Shown piece after piece: positions 5,390-18,115 of a stretch of DNA of 64,000 nt. Every line of letters starts with the position of its first letter. The first letter of the stretch is position 1. The notes below the pieces were generated by a model. That model saw only the letters and a list, made by a program, of their open reading frames with translations, ran no database searches and was not told the origin of the DNA. Origin of the DNA: Aeromicrobium stalagmiti (GTDB taxonomy: Bacteria > Actinomycetota > Actinomycetes > Propionibacteriales > Nocardioidaceae). The stretch lies in the NCBI RefSeq assembly GCF_013283745.1, contig NZ_JABSTZ010000002.1, positions 496,001 through 560,000 on the forward strand, written 5' to 3'. A program made the translations under genes and the position numbers.

Positions 5390-5994
5390 GTGGTCGGGGC
5401 CCTGGGGCGGGTCGTCCGGTCGACGATCAGCGCGCCGACGAACGCCCCGAGCGTGCCGAGCAGCTCGTCGCTGAGCGTGTCCTCGTACGCACCGTCGAGC
5501 TCGGTGCCACGGCGGATGAACGTGTACCACTCGCCGAGCTCCCAGCCGACCGCGAGGATCGCGCCGAGTCCGGTGATGGCGACGACGAGCAGCCATCGAG
5601 GCTGCACGTCGGCGCGGGCGATCAGCAGCCCGCAGCCCCAGAGCAGGAGCAGCCAGTTGGCGAAGTGGTTGATGTTGTCCCACGGCTCGATGGAGTCGTA
5701 GAGGTCGAGGGTGTTGCCGGTGACGTCGATGAAGAACGGAGCCATGATCAGCGCGAACGCACCCCAGGGGAGCGCGTTGACGCTGGTCGTGGCCCCGTCC
5801 TTCGATCCGGAGCGGGTCCTCCACCACCAGATCGCCGGCACCAGGAGCATCAGGAACGGGTAGAACCCGAGGCGGTAGCCGAAGCCCTTGCCCTCGTACT
5901 GCTCGAGCCCGCCGAACGCGCCGACGGCGAGCTGGACGACGGTGAGCGCGAGGATGACGACAGCGGCCCAGAACGTGCGGGGGCGAGATGACAT
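5386..5994 (-). CDS. DUF2238-like (YjdF-type) integral membrane protein
   Basis: Starting at the ATG at 5994, the 202-residue protein has about six hydrophobic segments. Conserved polar residues lie within or next to them: DNINHFANWLLL in the middle and WELGEWYTFIRRG with DTLSDELLGTLGAF towards the end. This layout (Asp/His near a helix start and paired Glu residues later) is what I recall for the DUF2238/YjdF family of uncharacterised membrane proteins. A longer open frame extends to 6108 but its extra residues are Arg/Cys-rich and not membrane-like, so I rejected it. Convergent with the secreted protein gene, overlapping its last 4 bp. Confidence 0.7.
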   Translation of the reverse strand: MSSRPRTFWAAVVILALTVVQLAVGAFGGLEQYEGKGFGYRLGFYPFLMLLVPAIWWWRTRSGSKDGATTSVNALPWGAFALIMAPFFIDVTGNTLDLYDSIEPWDNINHFANWLLLLWGCGLLIARADVQPRWLLVVAITGLGAILAVGWELGEWYTFIRRGTELDGAYEDTLSDELLGTLGAFVGALIVDRTTRPRAPTT

Positions 5995-6093
5995 GCGCTC
6001 AGACTGGCACAGCCGCGTCGTCCACAGCCGGACGTCGGACGCCGCGCATCCACAGGCCCGTGCTGGGCGATGGGTTCGAGGTGCGCGCGGGCC

Positions 6094-6099
6094 TAGCGT
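6094..6099 (+). promoter_or_regulatory. leaderless-type -10 (TAGCGT)
   Basis: TAGCGT ends seven bases before the ATG at 6107. It is the same hexamer as at 310-315 and implies a leaderless mRNA. Confidence 0.45.
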
Positions 6100-6106
6100 C
6101 GACGAC

Positions 6107-6622
6107 ATGATCCATCCGTCCCGGCAGAGCCGCCACGACCAGGCCCTTCCCGCGCTCGCGCGCTTCTTCGACGAGCAGGCGCGCGGACGGTCCGAGCCGA
6201 CGCGGATGCGCTACGACCGCGTGCACCAGCGCTTGCTCAAGTTTCTCGCCGAGGGTGACATGAGCCGCTGCCTCGACCTGCGGGAGAACGCGTGCCTGGC
6301 AGAGGCCCGCCAGCGTGGACAGGGGTTCTTCGAGGTGTTCGGGCTCGAGGAGATGCTGGTCTGCCTGCTGCGGTTCGTCGACGACGACTGGCTGCTCGAC
6401 CCCGTCACCGACGCCCGTGCCCAGGTGATGCTCGCCGGGCGGTTGGCCACGTCGCTGCAACGGTCGGGGCTGCTCGACCGCGACCTGCTCGGCTGCTCGG
6501 TCTATGAGTCGGAGGCGGCGATCCGCGCTGCGCAGGAGCGGCTGCGTCCGCCGTCGCGCCGGGACGCGGCGGTGGGACCACCCGCCTTGCGGCTCATCCG
6601 TGGTGGGCTGGCCGATTCGTGA
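6107..6622 (+). CDS. conserved helical protein of unknown function, paralogue of 17735-18115
   Basis: The 171-residue product is soluble and mostly helical. I do not recognise a named domain. It shares an ordered set of residues with the protein at 17735: FF-x-GR, an E(P)T..RY.RV run, FL...DM, an L-x-CL segment and AR.QV....RLA..L. The two are therefore distant paralogues of roughly 30% identity by eye. The phrase GRSEPTRMRYDRVHQRLLKFL loosely recalls the SAM-like core-binding domain of tyrosine recombinases, but no catalytic domain follows. It is a single gene with a leaderless-type promoter. Confidence 0.7.
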   Translation: MIHPSRQSRHDQALPALARFFDEQARGRSEPTRMRYDRVHQRLLKFLAEGDMSRCLDLRENACLAEARQRGQGFFEVFGLEEMLVCLLRFVDDDWLLDPVTDARAQVMLAGRLATSLQRSGLLDRDLLGCSVYESEAAIRAAQERLRPPSRRDAAVGPPALRLIRGGLADS

Positions 6623-6658: not shown

Positions 6659-8116
6659 TCAGTCGCCGGCCGGACGGACGAGCGCGGCACGGTCCCACAC
6701 CAGCCCCCGGCCACGCAGCCGCGGCAGCACGGCGCGGAGATCGGACTGCGCCTGGTCTGCCGGGACGCCGAGCAACCGGGCGTACGCCACCGCCACCGAG
6801 GGCGTCCGCTGCTGCGCGGCGACGCAGTGGACGAAGACCGTCCTGCCCGCGTCGCGCAGGTCCTTGATCACGTGCGCGGCGTCGGCGAGCAGGAAGTCGA
6901 GGTGCGGGTTGTCGTCGGGGTCGTCGGAGTCGACGAGCCACACGGCCGCGTGATCGTCGACGTCGGCGAAGTCGTCGGCGCCGACCCGGCACAGCGAGAC
7001 GACGGCGTCGCAGCCGTGGGCGGGGGAGCGATAGGTCCCGAGCTTCACGCCGTCGTCGTGCGGGTGGGTCACGAGGTCATCCGGTGCCTCGACGTAGTCC
7101 CTGCTCGTCATGTGGGGCGCGACCGGCCATCCGGTCGAGGTGCCCCGGTCGGCCGTGCGAAGGGCGAGCGCGACGAGCCCGCGGGCGCGGTGCCCGCCAT
7201 AGCCGTGGACCCGCCGCGACCAGTCTGCCGGGATCGCCGACGCACCCCAGACGGCGCCGAGCAGTCCACCGGCGATCGCCGCGACGGTGTCGGTGTCGTC
7301 GCCCGCCCGTACGGCGTTCATCAGCGCGAGCGCGAAGTGCTGGGCGGGGACCGTGCCGGCGGCGGGGTCAGGCTTCGGCGTCGGGGTCCACGTGATCGCG
7401 GCCCACGCAGCCTGGAGTGCGTAGACGGTGAAGCCGTTGCGGGCGAACGTCCGCGGGTCGACGTCGGTCGCCTCGTCGATCCACTCGTGCCACTGGTCGC
7501 GGCGGGTCTCGGGGATGAGGTCGAGCCCGGCGAGCAGCTCGAGCCGGCCGGTCGTGACGGCCAGGCGGATCGCCTCGCTCCACAGCACGCACGACTCCAG
7601 GCCCAGCGGGTCGTTGTGCGTCAGGGAGGCGACGGCGCGGGCTGCGGCCGCGGTGGCGTCGCGGTCGTCGAGCCGCGAGAGGGCCACGACGGACGTCCGC
7701 ATGAGGGCCCCGTTGCCCACACGTCCGGGGAGGGCGAAGGCGTGCTCGGCCGACACGTCACGCATGGCCCGACCACGCGAGCCGCCGCGGACCCGGGTCT
7801 CGGCGAAGATCGCCCGGGTCTGGCTGCCCACGTCCTTGGCCGTCGCCGCCCAGGCGAGGAACCGCTCGGCGATCTCGTCGAGGGCCTCGTCCGACGTGAG
7901 GTCGGCGCCGGTCGCTGCCACCTCGGCGATGCAGACCGCCATCGAGGTGTCGTCGCTGTACTCGCCGGGGTCGAAGCCGAAGGGCCCGCCGCCGGTCATC
8001 TGCGGCACGAGCGGCTCGGGCAGGGCCGGTCCGAACTCGTACGGGACGCCCAGCGCGTCGCCGCACGCCTGTCCGAGCAGCACGCCGGCTGCCCGATCGT
8101 GTGACTGTCGTGCCAT
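6659..8116 (-). CDS. ADP-ribosylglycohydrolase fused to a dual-specificity phosphatase domain
   Basis: The 485-residue protein starts MARQSHDRAAGVLLGQACGD. Residues 1 to about 325 form a DraG/ARH-type ADP-ribosylglycohydrolase: SDDT at 54-57 and GDDTD at 272-276 match the binuclear-metal motifs, and GNGALMR is typical. The C-terminal 150 residues contain HCVAAQQRT (H430, C431, R437), the HC-x5-R signature of tyrosine/dual-specificity phosphatases. It should remove ADP-ribose from macromolecules, while the second domain could remove a phosphate or act on a related product. The start at 8116 was chosen because residues further upstream do not match the family. It is divergent from the macro-like gene and the Nudix regulator. 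Confidence 0.92.
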   Translation of the reverse strand: MARQSHDRAAGVLLGQACGDALGVPYEFGPALPEPLVPQMTGGGPFGFDPGEYSDDTSMAVCIAEVAATGADLTSDEALDEIAERFLAWAATAKDVGSQTRAIFAETRVRGGSRGRAMRDVSAEHAFALPGRVGNGALMRTSVVALSRLDDRDATAAAARAVASLTHNDPLGLESCVLWSEAIRLAVTTGRLELLAGLDLIPETRRDQWHEWIDEATDVDPRTFARNGFTVYALQAAWAAITWTPTPKPDPAAGTVPAQHFALALMNAVRAGDDTDTVAAIAGGLLGAVWGASAIPADWSRRVHGYGGHRARGLVALALRTADRGTSTGWPVAPHMTSRDYVEAPDDLVTHPHDDGVKLGTYRSPAHGCDAVVSLCRVGADDFADVDDHAAVWLVDSDDPDDNPHLDFLLADAAHVIKDLRDAGRTVFVHCVAAQQRTPSVAVAYARLLGVPADQAQSDLRAVLPRLRGRGLVWDRAALVRPAGD

Positions 8117-8156
8117 CGCGACCACCTCTTCCTGATGTGTCGACCGCCTGTCGACT

Positions 8157-8185
8157 ACATTAATACTCACTTCTACTAATAATGT
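8157..8185 (+). promoter_or_regulatory. AT-rich palindrome, candidate NrtR-type operator
   Basis: Two 11-bp arms, ACATTAATACT and ACTAATAATGT, are separated by seven bases and pair at 9 of 11 positions. The site is strikingly AT-rich for this genome. It lies between the divergent ADP-ribosylglycohydrolase and YbjN/A1S_2505-like genes, 41 and 76 bp from their start codons. The Nudix-HTH regulator encoded at 9050 is the obvious candidate to bind it. The assignment is inference. Confidence 0.55.
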
Positions 8186-8260
8186 CGGGCGGGTCTGACA
8201 GATTGGTGGGAGTCGACGAGTGGGACGAGACCGAGTGCGTCCACGGAGCAGGGGGCAGAC

Positions 8261-9037
8261 ATGAGCGACGACGACCTGACAGGCCTGGCCGAGCGGGCCG
8301 AGGCCGCACTCAAGGAGGCCTGCGGCGCCGACGACCTCGCGGTCGACGACGACGGCGACTGGCCGATCGACGTGCAGGGCACGCAGATGTACGTCAGCGT
8401 GGTCGACGAGCCACGACCGCACGTCCACGTCTTCGCGCGCATCGCGACCGATGTCTCGAGCGACGCCTGGGCCGAGATCAACCACCTCAACAACGCGATG
8501 CTGTGGGCCAAGGTGATCCTCGGCGACGACGGCGGGGTCTTCCTGAGCTCACGCCTGCACCCGTCCGCCGTGACGGCCGAGGTGCTCGACACGACGCTCG
8601 AGGCGATCGCCGAGTATGCCCGCGACTGCGGCTCGATGCTCGAGGCGGTCTATGGCACCGGGCCGATCGACCCCGCGCAGCAGCGCACGACACCCGATGC
8701 CGTGACCGCCCTGGAGCCCGGTGCTGTCTTCGTGTTCGGCAGCGGCGCGACGGGCGGGCACACCGGTGGTGCGGCGCGGCTCGCGGTGGAGCGGTTCGGC
8801 GCCGAGCGGGGAGTCAGCGAGGGCCTGCGCGGAGACAGCTATGCCATCCCGACGATGCAGGGCTTTGCGACGTTCGAGGATGCCGCCGGGCGCTTCGTCG
8901 TGTTCGCCGCCGAGCATCCAGAGCTCGAGTTCTGGCTGACGCGCGTCGGTTGCGGACACGCTGGTTTCGCCGAGTCCGCCGTCGCCGAGCTGTTCGCCGG
9001 CACGCCGGCCAACGTGATCAAGCCACCCGGCTGGTGA
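8261..9037 (+). CDS. YbjN-type chaperone domain fused to an A1S_2505-like (macro-like) domain
   Basis: The 258-residue protein starts MSDDDLTGLAERAEAALKEA behind GGGGGC. Residues 1 to about 130 look like a YbjN / T3SS-chaperone-like fold (WPIDVQGTQMYVSVVDEPRPHV, then NHLNNAMLWAKVIL). Residues from about 145 (EPGAVFVFGSGATGGHTGGAA, then ERFGAERGVSEGLRGDSYAIPT and TRVGCGHAGF) match the A1S_2505 phage-associated family. That family has a FVFGSN...G.H..GAA phrase reminiscent of macrodomain ADP-ribose loops. The partner genes (glycohydrolase and NrtR-type Nudix) support an ADP-ribose or NAD-derived ligand. The join of a chaperone-like and a ligand-binding domain is notable. It is probably cotranscribed with the Nudix gene, 12 bp downstream. 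Confidence 0.8.
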   Translation: MSDDDLTGLAERAEAALKEACGADDLAVDDDGDWPIDVQGTQMYVSVVDEPRPHVHVFARIATDVSSDAWAEINHLNNAMLWAKVILGDDGGVFLSSRLHPSAVTAEVLDTTLEAIAEYARDCGSMLEAVYGTGPIDPAQQRTTPDAVTALEPGAVFVFGSGATGGHTGGAARLAVERFGAERGVSEGLRGDSYAIPTMQGFATFEDAAGRFVVFAAEHPELEFWLTRVGCGHAGFAESAVAELFAGTPANVIKPPGW

Positions 9038-9049
9038 CGACGTGACGAC

Positions 9050-9739
9050 GTGGTGAGGGAGCAGGGCCCGCCGCAGCACCCGTGGGCGTACGTGGCGGTC
9101 GACGTCGTGGTGCTCACGATCCGCGACCGGCAGCTGCAGGTCATGACGATCCGGCGCGCGATCGCTCCCGGGCAGGGCGGTCCCGCGCTGCCCGGCGGGT
9201 TCGTCCGTCTCGACGAGGACCTGGAGGCGGCCGCGCGGCGTGAGCTGCGCGAGGAGACTGGCCTGGAGGTCGACTACCTCGAGCAGGTCAGGACGTACGG
9301 CGCACCCGGTCGCGACCCGCGGGCCCGGACGTTCGCCGTCCTCTACCTCGCCGTGATGGCGGACCTTCCCGACGGGGCGGCCGGCACCGATGCGTCCGCC
9401 GCGTCCTGGGTGCCGGTCGACGAGCTGCTCGCCGTCGACCTGCCGTTCGACCACCACGAGATGCTCGTCGACGCGGTCGAGCGGGCCCGCTCCAAGCTCG
9501 AGTACACCCCGATCGCTGCCTCGTTCTGCCGCACCGCGTTCACGATCGGCGACCTGCGCCGCGTCTACGAGATCGTCTGGGGCAAGCGGCTCAACCCCGC
9601 CAACTTCGCCCGCAAGGTGCAGTCGGTCGAGGGGTTCGTCGTCGAGACCGGTGACGTGGTCTCCGAAGGACGCGGCCGGCCCGCCAAGACGTTCACCCGG
9701 GGCGACGTCACCCGCCTGCATCCGCCGCTGCGACGCTGA
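9050..9739 (+). CDS. nrtR: NrtR-type transcriptional regulator (Nudix domain plus winged helix)
   Basis: The 229-residue protein has a Nudix domain at about residues 15-150 with an intact Nudix box (G-x5-E-x7-RELREETGL, around residues 46-68). The C-terminal winged helix (FTIGDLRRVYEIVWGKRLNP through GRGRPAKTF) is characteristic of NrtR regulators of NAD metabolism. NrtR proteins bind ADP-ribose or related ligands and release DNA; many have lost Nudix catalysis, but here the box is complete, so hydrolysis of ADP-ribose is possible. The GTG at 9050 was chosen, with another GTG three bases later. It follows the macro-like gene by 12 bp. It probably controls both sides of the palindrome at 8157-8185. 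Confidence 0.88.
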   Translation: MVREQGPPQHPWAYVAVDVVVLTIRDRQLQVMTIRRAIAPGQGGPALPGGFVRLDEDLEAAARRELREETGLEVDYLEQVRTYGAPGRDPRARTFAVLYLAVMADLPDGAAGTDASAASWVPVDELLAVDLPFDHHEMLVDAVERARSKLEYTPIAASFCRTAFTIGDLRRVYEIVWGKRLNPANFARKVQSVEGFVVETGDVVSEGRGRPAKTFTRGDVTRLHPPLRR

Positions 9740-10738: not shown

Positions 10739-12016
10739 ATGTTCTCCAGCATCATCACCTTCCTGCTGACCGTCCTGTCGACGGTGGTCCCGCCGACGTC
10801 GGCGACCGGTGGGCCAGGCGCGGACAGCGCGGCGTACAACCAGCACTACTACGCCAACCAGACGCCGTACGGCGACGCCGCCACGGCGCCGGTGATGGAG
10901 GCGCCCGACGGCTATCGGCTCACCTTCGTCGAGACGGTCGGACGCCACGGCGCCCGCACGCTGACCAGCTCGGCCCGTGAGCGCCGATCGCTCGCAGTCT
11001 GGTCCGCGGCGAAGAAGCAGGGCGCACTGACCGACCTCGGTGCGCAGTACGCCGACGACGTCACCCGGTTCCAGAAGCCGGAGCAGCAGATCGGCTACGG
11101 CAACCTGAGCTCGATCGGTGCACAGGAGTGGCAGGGCATCGGACGCCGCACCGCCGACGCGTACGGCGACTTCCTGCGGCAGGCGACGAGGGCCGGGGAC
11201 CAGGTCGTGTTCAAGACGTCGCCGGTCCTGCGGACGATCGAGAGCGCTGACGCGATGCGCTCGAGCCTGCAGAAGGCGGTGCCGGGGCTCGAGGTCGCCG
11301 ACTACGTGACCGACCCGGCGACGCTGCTGATCGGCAACGGTGCGTCCATCAACGGCAACCGTGCCGTCGAGCAGGTGCTCGCGCGCCCGGAGGTCGTCGC
11401 CGCGGCCGAGCACCTGCTGGGCCGTCTGTACGACGCGTCGTTCGTCGACGCGCTGGCCGATCCGGTCGAGGCTGCGCTCGACGTCTACCTGCTCTACTGC
11501 ACCGCCCCGGGCATGGCGGCCGACACCGACGTGACCTTCGAGCCGTACGTGCCGCTCCGCGACGCCAAGGTGCTGGCCTATGCCGTCGATGCGAAGAACT
11601 TCTACCAGTACGGCCCCGGCGTGGCCGGTGAGGACAGCTCGTACCGGGCGGCGCGACTGTTGCTCGACGACTTCTTCGCAGCCCTCGACGACCGGCTCGC
11701 CGGTGGCGACACGGCCGCGGTGTTCCGCCTGGCCCACGGCGAGACGACCATGCCCTTCGCGGCGCTGATCGACCTGCCCGGCAGCCAGGAGCAGGCACCG
11801 GCAGGCAGCGTCTACACCTACGACGACAACGACTGGCGCGGATTCGTCGCGGGGCGGCTCGGCGGCAACATCGAGTGGGCGGCGTACGCGAGTCGCTCGG
11901 GCAAGGCGCTGGTGACGGTCCGCTACAACGAGCAGCCGGTCAAGCTCGCCTCCGGCTGTCGCGCCACGACGCCGTACTTCTACCGACCCGCCGAGCTGCG
12001 ACGCTGCCTCGACTGA
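10739..12016 (+). CDS. secreted histidine-phosphatase superfamily protein (copy 1)
   Basis: The 425-residue protein has an N-terminal hydrophobic export signal (MFSSIITFLLTVLSTVVPP). It then has the histidine acid phosphatase signature VGRHGARTL (RHG near residue 67) and a late HGETTMPFA, where HGE takes the place of the usual HAE/HD proton donor. The family, which includes phytases and multiple inositol-polyphosphate phosphatases, releases phosphate outside the cell. It ends 25 bp before a close paralogue, so the two arose by tandem duplication. Shared phrases include YANQTPYG, GYGNLSSIG/GYGHLSSIG, EWQGIGRRT and LDVYLLYC. Confidence 0.92.
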   Translation: MFSSIITFLLTVLSTVVPPTSATGGPGADSAAYNQHYYANQTPYGDAATAPVMEAPDGYRLTFVETVGRHGARTLTSSARERRSLAVWSAAKKQGALTDLGAQYADDVTRFQKPEQQIGYGNLSSIGAQEWQGIGRRTADAYGDFLRQATRAGDQVVFKTSPVLRTIESADAMRSSLQKAVPGLEVADYVTDPATLLIGNGASINGNRAVEQVLARPEVVAAAEHLLGRLYDASFVDALADPVEAALDVYLLYCTAPGMAADTDVTFEPYVPLRDAKVLAYAVDAKNFYQYGPGVAGEDSSYRAARLLLDDFFAALDDRLAGGDTAAVFRLAHGETTMPFAALIDLPGSQEQAPAGSVYTYDDNDWRGFVAGRLGGNIEWAAYASRSGKALVTVRYNEQPVKLASGCRATTPYFYRPAELRRCLD

Positions 12017-12041: not shown

Positions 12042-13310
12042 ATGCGAACCCGGCGCCGTCTGCTTGCCCTCACCGTCGCGATGACCGCGCTGGCGGTGCC
12101 GCTGTCGTCCGCCCGCGCCGACGTCAGCAATGCGAAGTTCTACGCCAACCAGACGCCGTACGGCAATCCTGCGAGCAGCCAGGTCAAGGCGGCACCGAGC
12201 GGGTACGACCTGTTCTTCCTCGAGACCGTCGGGCGTCACGGCTCACGGTCGATGACCAACACCGATGGCGAGAAGCGGGCGCTCGCGATCTGGACGACCG
12301 CATCCCGCCGGGGACTGCTCACGACCCGCGGCCGGCAGTTCGCCGCCGACCTGCGGTCGTTCCAGGCCGCGGAGAAGAAGCTCGGCTACGGCCATCTCAG
12401 CTCGATCGGCAAGGACGAGTGGCAGGGCATCGGCCGTCGCACCGCGACCGTCGCTGGCGACTTCTTCGCCGAGGTCGCGCGCTCCGGCGACAAGGTCGCG
12501 ATGACCACCTCGCCGATCTACCGCACCAAGCAGAGCGCCCACTACATGGAGGTCGGTCTCTCGCGGGCGGTGCCGGGGCTGCGCTACGCCGCCCGGACGA
12601 CGGACGACGACCTGTTGATCGAGGACGGCTCGTCCCGCAAGGGCAGGGCCGCGATCGCTGCTGTCGAGCGTCGCTCGAGCGTCCGCACGGCGGCCAAGGA
12701 CGTCCTGCTGCGGATGTACCGTCCGTCGTACGTCGCGTCGATCAAGGATCCGCTGCAGGCGGCGCTCGACGTCTACCTGCTCTACTGCATCGGCGCCGGC
12801 ATGAGGGACGACACCGACGTGACGTTCGCCGACTACGTGCCGCTGTCGGCCGCGGCCAAGCTCGCCGAGGTCAAGGACGCGCACAACTTCTACCGCTACG
12901 GCCCCGGCGTCTCGGGGGAGCGCAGCTCCTACAAGGCTGCCGACCCGATCCTCGACGACTTCTTCGCCCGGCTCGACCGCCGCACGCGCGGCGGGCACAC
13001 CGCAGCGGTGTTCCGGCACGCCCACGGCGAGGTGACGATGCCGTTCGCGGTGCTCAGCCGGATGCCCCGCAGCCAGAAGCAGGCGAGCAGCGGATCACCG
13101 TTCACCTACGGCAGCAACCCGTGGCGCGGCTACGTCGTCGGACGCATGGGCGGCAACACCGAGTGGGCCGCCTACAAGAACGCAGGCGGCTCGGTGCTGG
13201 TCACGTTCCGCTACAACGAGCAGCCGGTCACCCTCACGTCGTGCACCCCGTCGGGCGCCGGCGGCGGCTACTTCTACCGGGTCTCCCAGCTCAAGAAGTG
13301 CCTCGGCTGA
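12042..13310 (+). CDS. secreted histidine-phosphatase superfamily protein (copy 2)
   Basis: The 422-residue product has a classical signal peptide (MRTRRRLLALTVAMTALAVP with cleavage expected after ARA). VGRHGSRSM carries the catalytic RHG, and HAHGEVTMPFA is the distal acid motif. It is collinear with the gene before it over the whole length, and the two are paralogues. Two similar but diverged copies suggest different phosphate ester substrates or a dose benefit during phosphate limitation. A separate leaderless-type promoter can be proposed in the 25-bp gap. Downstream is a repeat-containing intergenic region, convergent with the helicase gene. Confidence 0.92.
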   Translation: MRTRRRLLALTVAMTALAVPLSSARADVSNAKFYANQTPYGNPASSQVKAAPSGYDLFFLETVGRHGSRSMTNTDGEKRALAIWTTASRRGLLTTRGRQFAADLRSFQAAEKKLGYGHLSSIGKDEWQGIGRRTATVAGDFFAEVARSGDKVAMTTSPIYRTKQSAHYMEVGLSRAVPGLRYAARTTDDDLLIEDGSSRKGRAAIAAVERRSSVRTAAKDVLLRMYRPSYVASIKDPLQAALDVYLLYCIGAGMRDDTDVTFADYVPLSAAAKLAEVKDAHNFYRYGPGVSGERSSYKAADPILDDFFARLDRRTRGGHTAAVFRHAHGEVTMPFAVLSRMPRSQKQASSGSPFTYGSNPWRGYVVGRMGGNTEWAAYKNAGGSVLVTFRYNEQPVTLTSCTPSGAGGGYFYRVSQLKKCLG

Positions 13311-17682: not shown

Positions 17683-17734
17683 CGCGTCAGCAGCGCCGGC
17701 CCGGAGTGTCCGACCCTGCTGATTGAGTGCAGCC

Positions 17735-18115
17735 ATGGACCTCGACGAGCCGGGCTGGCCGCTGATCGACGACTTCTTCCACGACCTCGCCGAGGGCCGC
17801 AAGGCCGAGACGGTGCGACGCTATGCCCGGGTCCGCCTGCGGACGTACGACTTCCTCGACGTCGACGACATGACCACGTGGCTCGACCCCGACGACGCCG
17901 TGCTGCTGGCGGCCGAGCGAGAGTTCCTGCGCGAGGGTGCGGTCTGGACGCTCCTCGGCATCGACGGCGTGCTGCGCTGCCTGCCGGGACTGCTGACGCC
18001 GGAGCGCCTGCCCACGTCAGCGGCCGAGGCCCGCATGCAGGTCAGCGTCGTCAACCGGTTGGCCGACCACCTGCGCCGACACCTCGCGGTCCCGCAGCAG
18101 CCGGGCTCCTCGTGA
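17735..18115 (+). CDS. conserved helical protein of unknown function, paralogue of 6107-6622
   Basis: The 126-residue product is soluble and helical, without a recognised domain. It aligns along its length with the protein at 6107. The shared elements are FF...GR, ET..RYARV, FL...DM, LD, L-x-A, then a G-x-x-x-x-L segment, CL, AR-x-QV and RLADHL. It lacks the basic C-terminal tail of its paralogue. It lies 52 bp after the broken serine hydrolase and 62 bp before the dioxygenase gene. The two paralogues are not in the same neighbourhood, so they define a small dispersed family. Confidence 0.7.
   Translation: MDLDEPGWPLIDDFFHDLAEGRKAETVRRYARVRLRTYDFLDVDDMTTWLDPDDAVLLAAEREFLREGAVWTLLGIDGVLRCLPGLLTPERLPTSAAEARMQVSVVNRLADHLRRHLAVPQQPGSS

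Follow-up and report, generated by a model that had tools for sequence, protein, structure and literature searches.

What would a bacterium do with three genes of apparent ADP-ribose biology that stand divergently at one locus with no transferase coupled to them? We examined such a locus in Aeromicrobium stalagmiti (assembly GCF_013283745.1, genome size 3.68 Mb), within a 64,000-nt window of contig NZ_JABSTZ010000002.1 (496,001–560,000); all coordinates without a further label are positions in this window. An ADP-ribosylglycohydrolase (ARG) gene on the minus strand (6659–8116) diverges from two genes on the plus strand, which encode a chaperone fused to a macro-like A1S_2505 domain (8261–9037) and an NrtR-type regulator (9050–9739). 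Gene content, motifs, fold classes and conservation are observed here. Its core is an ARG-centred host system of the kind set out in section 3.8 of Iyer et al, 2022 (PMC9503650), and the three-gene module probably strips ADP-ribose tags off the host's own proteins. The chaperone–macro fusion looks like a new accessory variant of these predicted systems, as far as the main text of that paper describes them.

The locus carries the parts of a predicted ADP-ribosylglycohydrolase system

The systems described by Iyer, Burroughs, Anantharaman and Aravind in that section combine ARG with a phosphatase of the rhodanese superfamily, regulators of the Nudix or WYL type and TY-Chap1-3, lack a transferase, and are proposed (as a prediction there too) to counter viral ADP-ribosylation. 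The paper also names Alt and ModA/ModB, transferases of phage T4. With them the locus shares an ARG with metal motifs and a fused phosphatase tail, a Nudix–helix-turn-helix regulator, TY-Chap1 as the predicted chaperone, which in these systems is of the TY-Chap, SseB or vWA type, and the absence of a coupled transferase or sirtuin. It differs in the macro-like domain fused to the chaperone: the main text of PMC9503650 mentions Macro as an occasional accessory gene and contains neither "A1S" nor "DUF1810", although such a fusion might still be drawn in its figures or supplements. The theme that the original prediction raised, reversal or sensing of ADP-ribosylation, is supported as the likely one and had already been proposed for this gene set in that section.

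The product of 6659–8116 (485 aa; the start was taken as 8116, while a mechanical list of open reading frames (ORFs) extends the frame to 8485, giving 608 aa) was confirmed as an ADP-ribosylglycohydrolase by its match to ADP_ribosyl_GH (PF03747; aa 11–298, 7223–8086 on the minus strand), with 172.3 bits against a Pfam cut-off of 26.2, and the metal motifs SDDT and GDDTDT are present. It is the sole PF03747 match in a genome-wide profile search. Its C-terminal tail belongs to the dual-specificity phosphatase (DSP)/rhodanese-phosphatase superfamily, and direct reading finds the C-X5-R signature intact within HCVAAQQRT (6806–6826, minus strand), a loop kept in all seven relatives with a complete tail. 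The DSPc match at aa 409–445 scored 22.1 bits, under the Pfam cut-off of 33.5, which the ARG tails of two relatives pass (42.3 and 34.1 bits); the dual-specificity phosphatase tail of the original prediction is borne out by the loop and by these relatives, and not by the window protein's own score. The ARG metal, CX5R and Nudix-box motifs were read by the usual definitions.

That no transferase gene lies beside the locus, as had been noted, held for five flanking ORFs, in which a Pfam scan found no ADP-ribosyltransferase or sirtuin; elsewhere in the window no such scan was made. Genome-wide, the transferase search covered DarT, not other families, and gave no match, nor did searches of the genome for KptA (PF01885) and Macro (PF01661). 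The genome has one sirtuin gene, on another contig.

A chaperone is joined to a macro-like domain that lacks the catalytic lysine

Judged by its sequence, the unusual part of the locus is a folding helper fused to a compact domain of ADP-ribose-binding type that lacks the catalytic Lys. The 258-aa product of 8261–9037 matched TY-Chap1 (PF22551; aa 9–132, 8285–8656) with 62.3 bits (cut-off 27) and YbjN with 28.9 bits (cut-off 22) in Pfam, and A1S_2505_Nterm (NF049995) at aa 156–258 with 116 bits (cut-off 45), all in agreement with the YbjN-type and A1S_2505 fusion first proposed; the second domain also matched phrog_2072 (PHROG, 88.8 bits). Type III secretion chaperones were the best Foldseek matches of the chaperone half, consistent with TY-Chap1, and a full-length single-sequence model was good for this half only. 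The nearest named match among those listed is from Aeromicrobium (76% identity).

Residues 145–258 had been claimed to be macro-like, and structure comparison upheld this. On the AlphaFold2 model (predicted local distance difference test score 89.3), the A1S_2505 domain (aa 142–258, 8684–9034) has the macro fold of the TARG1/DarG type, and fold searches matched TARG1/DarG/SCO6735-type (ALC1-like) macrodomains over nearly the whole domain. Local alignments also match its PT-x and GCG loops to those of TARG1/DarG-type macrodomains. It differs from these relatives in its size (117 aa), in Met199 (8855–8857), which the same alignments place at the catalytic Lys (K84 of TARG1, K80 of DarG; NFPTK in DarG-type macrodomains) and which a Gln follows, and in that the 8261 protein has no match to Pfam Macro PF01661 (E up to 0.1). 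A global hhalign comparison (probability 8.5, P 0.001) took another, gapped register that did not place the Met on the Lys, while shallow hhalign aligned the GCG loop alone with DarG-type macros and gave nothing sensible with MacroD-type macrodomains. A PDB sequence search with the whole protein returned nothing at E up to 1, and one with the domain profile returned just two entries, an endoglucanase at E 0.18 and, at E 0.57, 5e3b, titled "Macrodomain protein".

The gene set recurs in part among relatives

Our main sample comprised 58 genomes, that of the window itself together with 57 relatives (labels such as G000 denote genomes, L-labels loci). The fusion query matched 8 of them: full-length in G000, G030 and G012, in the A1S portion for G013, G020 and G004, and in the TY portion for G026 and G037. 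Both G030 and G012 keep the divergent three-gene set at 76–83% identity with syntenic flanks. The ARG query matched 24/58 genomes, of which the strong matches were examined and those with E above 1e-30 left out (G032, G050, G001, G049, G051, G010, G057, G056, G052, G043, G038 and G048). This gave ten loci with ARG plus tail, counting G035 twice and including G026, cut by a contig end, and G047, which has a stop and whose tail is split. TY-Chap1 and NrtR are both present at five of the ten (G000, G012, G030, G026, G037), found by the ARG query alone; the co-conservation that the original prediction called for is supported at these loci, of which those of G030 and G012 keep the complete set. In G026, ARG and NrtR occur with a TY-Chap1-type gene but no A1S match; in G013, a lone A1S gene accompanies ARG before the contig ends; and in G020, A1S lies ~9 kb from ARG with a vWA protein nearby.

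A1S is rare in the family (8/294 genomes). In G071, of another genus in the same family, the gene divergent from ARG encodes a 103-aa protein (L168:1876–2184) that has no Pfam match and stands where the TY-Chap1 half would be, between ARG and a lone A1S gene; NrtR is present as well. A class-wide search that scored at most six candidates per genome gave at least 20 of 394 genomes. Outside the genus, 14 genomes were matched, and hence selected, by the TY half; six have ARG (G037, G355, G362, G378, G393, G416) and four NrtR (G037, G362, G378, G318), while ARG was not seen in eight in the stretch compared (just 1.5 kb flanks for G512 and G620). The distant actinobacteria G355, G362, G378 and G393 carry ARG-tail genes, with NrtR too in G362 and G378, and G318 has TY and NrtR with no ARG in the contig. 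One frame of 663 codons in G355 (L154:2–1990) contains both TY and ARG-phosphatase matches; Pfam reports the ARG and phosphatase families only.

A1S_2505 domains are joined to varied partners and occur in phages

Neither NCBIfam (NF049995) nor PHROGs (phrog_2072) gives the A1S_2505 family a function. Among 120 listed of the 166 homologues found (lengths 0.55–1.75 of the query), its partners were TY-Chap1 (15), ARG (14), Sigma70_r4_2 (sigma-70 region 4; 8), DUF1810 (7), VWA and VWA_2 (4 and 3, which may overlap), PARG (1) and DSPc, a DSP-type phosphatase (1). A second set, the best 80 of 531 ORFs, gave Sigma70_r4_2 (22), ARG (1) and DUF1810 (1); its titles are of Bacteroidales type, mostly Prevotella kin, except one Lachnospiraceae (L097), and its counts are not independent. 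No ARG relatives were found by tblastn in these 80 loci. The repeated pairing of A1S with hydrolases, chaperones and DNA-binding parts would fit a role as reader or sensor. Separately, an NrtR-like Nudix protein lies within ~6 kb at 6/80 of the loci (L033, L065, L089, L090, L092, L105).

A1S_2505 was matched in 309 of 50,697 phage records, and because a few of these already name the protein "macrodomain protein", "O-acetyl-ADP-ribose deacetylase" or "ADP-ribosylglycohydrolase", its macro kinship is not wholly new. Phage N4 gp14 (L171:2992–3369), listed as unknown in the text of PMC2784036 and not mentioned in the available text of PMC4193335, shares the domain with the window protein and differs in being single-domain with Lys at the site. 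RcZahn gp101 (annotated as an ADP-ribosyltransferase) and BPP-1 Bbp37 also carry A1S_2505 domains (L170:2983–3369 and L172:2971–3399), and the DarG-type PTK motif is kept in N4 gp14 and RcZahn gp101.

Lys occupies the site in 20/73 readable viral loci, and the TY-fused proteins that are readable there (P0008, P0009, P0014 and P0015 were left out) have Met, Thr or Gly, never Lys. A tendency of Lys-bearing viral members to be single-domain (18/21 vs 23/48, Fisher p 0.0035; 69/73 rows) was set aside, as the pairs independent on the tree (2 on starred branches, 6 in all) could not support it. On the A1S_2505 tree, built on few columns, K changed at least 8 times by parsimony, with 2 changes forced by starred branches, and the direction of change is unsure because the tree is rooted on a long outgroup branch. 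Tentatively, and with more doubt than belief, we suggest that A1S_2505 may be a compact branch of the TARG1/DarG type, once a Lys-bearing hydrolase (as in some phage members), in which replacement of Lys by Met or Leu made an ADP-ribose reader that became part of chaperones, hydrolases and DNA-binding proteins; at this locus it would equip a chaperone to recognise ADP-ribosylated clients.

The regulator has an intact Nudix box, and no operator is assigned

An NrtR-type regulator with an intact Nudix box had been read from the third gene, and both parts of this were verified: the 229-aa product of 9050–9739 passed the Pfam cut-offs for NUDIX (73.6 bits vs 21.1) and NrtR_WHD (46 vs 27), and its Nudix box GFVRLDEDLEAAARRELREETGL (9197–9265, plus strand) is complete (GX5EX7REUXEEXGU). 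It scored 141 bits, far under the cut-off of 400, for the NCBIfam ADPR-responsive repressor equivalog NF050029. Because a separate NrtR paralogue, whose Nudix box is degenerate, sits directly before nadA (L016:1024–1713 and 1713–2966), the NrtR linked to nadA in this genome is a different gene from the locus regulator. It shares Nudix and NrtR winged-helix domains with MsNrtR, by analogy with which ADP-ribose would be the expected ligand; MsNrtR, as described in the text of PMC6800001, binds GTTTTCGA-N7-TCGAAAAC, is released by ADP-ribose and has no hydrolase activity. The intact box sets the window regulator apart from both MsNrtR and the nadA-linked paralogue; it is intact also in the ARG-linked regulators of G030, G012, G026 and G037, and one glycine off in that of G071.

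The 144-base region between the divergent genes does contain, as originally written, an AT-rich imperfect inverted repeat (8157–8185; 8 of 9 pairs, 11-base spacer), a candidate operator or set of overlapping promoter elements that differs in form from the MsNrtR operator. Its left part is kept in the two congeners G030 and G012, where the arms are partly kept, and in G013 and G026 the intergenic stretches show no recognisable arms. With this partial conservation and a repeat no better than chance (see below), we do not put it forward as the operator. Nor do we claim one from the word TCA[CT]TTCTACT, common to the promoters of the locus and the nadA-linked NrtR, because its score by hand (8) was reached by 37/60 shuffles; the best word shared by both promoters in the shuffle test was a different one of 10 bases, a score that 3/60 shuffles reached. 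A 16-base pattern with TCA[CT]TTCTACT, one mismatch allowed, has just two sites in the genome, but was derived from those two.

Proposed mechanism and alternatives

From what is known of the families, an NrtR-type repressor would sit at the shared promoter and leave when free ADP-ribose rises. ARG would then cut ADP-ribose off modified host proteins, its phosphatase tail would process a phosphate of the released product, and the intact Nudix domain of the regulator may reset the switch by hydrolysing ADP-ribose as well. TY-Chap1 would act as a peptide-binding chaperone, and the macro-like part, because it has lost the catalytic Lys, as a reader by which the chaperone is docked on ADP-ribosylated clients, which are then passed to the ARG hydrolase. 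The trigger would probably be an outside transferase, from a phage or a rival, because none is coupled to the locus. On this reading as a whole, an inducible ARG-centred de-ADP-ribosylation module whose macro part is a reader docking the chaperone on its clients, our confidence is evenly balanced. The new element, if any, would be the reader role of the A1S_2505 domain, the rest of the set being of a known, predicted kind.

Several observations weigh against it. The reader role turns on a single residue, and SCO6735 has Gln in place of the catalytic Lys and yet is an active hydrolase (per the text of PMC9411070). A1S_2505 could likewise be an ADP-ribosylhydrolase without the Lys, its linkage specificity complementing that of ARG and the chaperone presenting the substrate, as its TARG1/DarG-type fold, the Gln after the Met and the Lys-bearing viral members would also allow; the absence of Lys from the readable TY-fused proteins and the frequent use of A1S_2505 as a fused module argue the other way, and we regard this alternative as possible, if doubtful. 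Induction is weakened in that 120/300 dinucleotide shuffles of the intergenic region contained an equally good repeat, and the Nudix box is degenerate in the NrtRs of G362, G318 and G378, so that Nudix hydrolysis is not essential; with the box intact in near relatives, the regulator may break down the molecule that induces it in this lineage, but not as a general rule. PADLOC has no family for ARG or the fusion (E up to 0.01), and for the regulator PDC-S07 alone (25.7 bits).

Partners are also missing in places. The other five of the ten ARG-tail loci (G013 at its contig end, G020, G035 twice and G047) are without TY-Chap1, NrtR or both in the stretch compared, with no partner detectable by tblastn at either G035 locus or G047; no ARG or NrtR accompanies the lone A1S genes of G004, G165, G470, G487 and G653 in the stretch compared, and the tail-less ARGs of G005, G009 and G023 have no partner. 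That the three genes are unrelated neighbours is nevertheless highly improbable, as the set recurs in several families and fusions join the same parts. We also think it rather unlikely that the locus serves to process small molecules (free ADP-ribose, O-acetyl-ADP-ribose or ADP-ribose-1''-phosphate) in NAD housekeeping, with the Nudix regulator and ARG serving salvage. The NrtR family and Nudix chemistry would suit such a role, and the genome's one sirtuin could make O-acetyl-ADP-ribose; against it stand the separate nadA-linked NrtR, the presence at the locus of a domain resembling type III secretion chaperones and the patchy spread of fusion and A1S matches. The ADP-ribose-1''-phosphate pathway raised in the original prediction is disfavoured by the lack of a KptA-type PF01885 match in the genome.

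Neighbouring genes

Downstream of the regulator, 10739–12016 and 12042–13310 encode tandem proteins of ~420 aa that match His_Phos_2 (histidine phosphatase branch 2), although the second protein does not reach the Pfam cut-off. The proteins of 5957–6619, 17723–18115 and L013:8819–9454 are similar by eye, the two from the window having no Pfam match; one of these lookalikes, syntenic in G030 and G012, ends beside the ARG gene, and another is found close to the lone A1S gene of G004.

Implications

A literature search in one paper library found no experiment on the predicted ARG systems, for which the locus is a compact native test case. A phage family that includes N4 gp14 and is function-less in NCBIfam and PHROGs is tied by fold and fusions to ADP-ribose biology, and its Lys/Met split makes the choice between reader and eraser testable with single proteins. 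If true, a chaperone that reads ADP-ribosylation would be a bacterial parallel to macro-domain readers.

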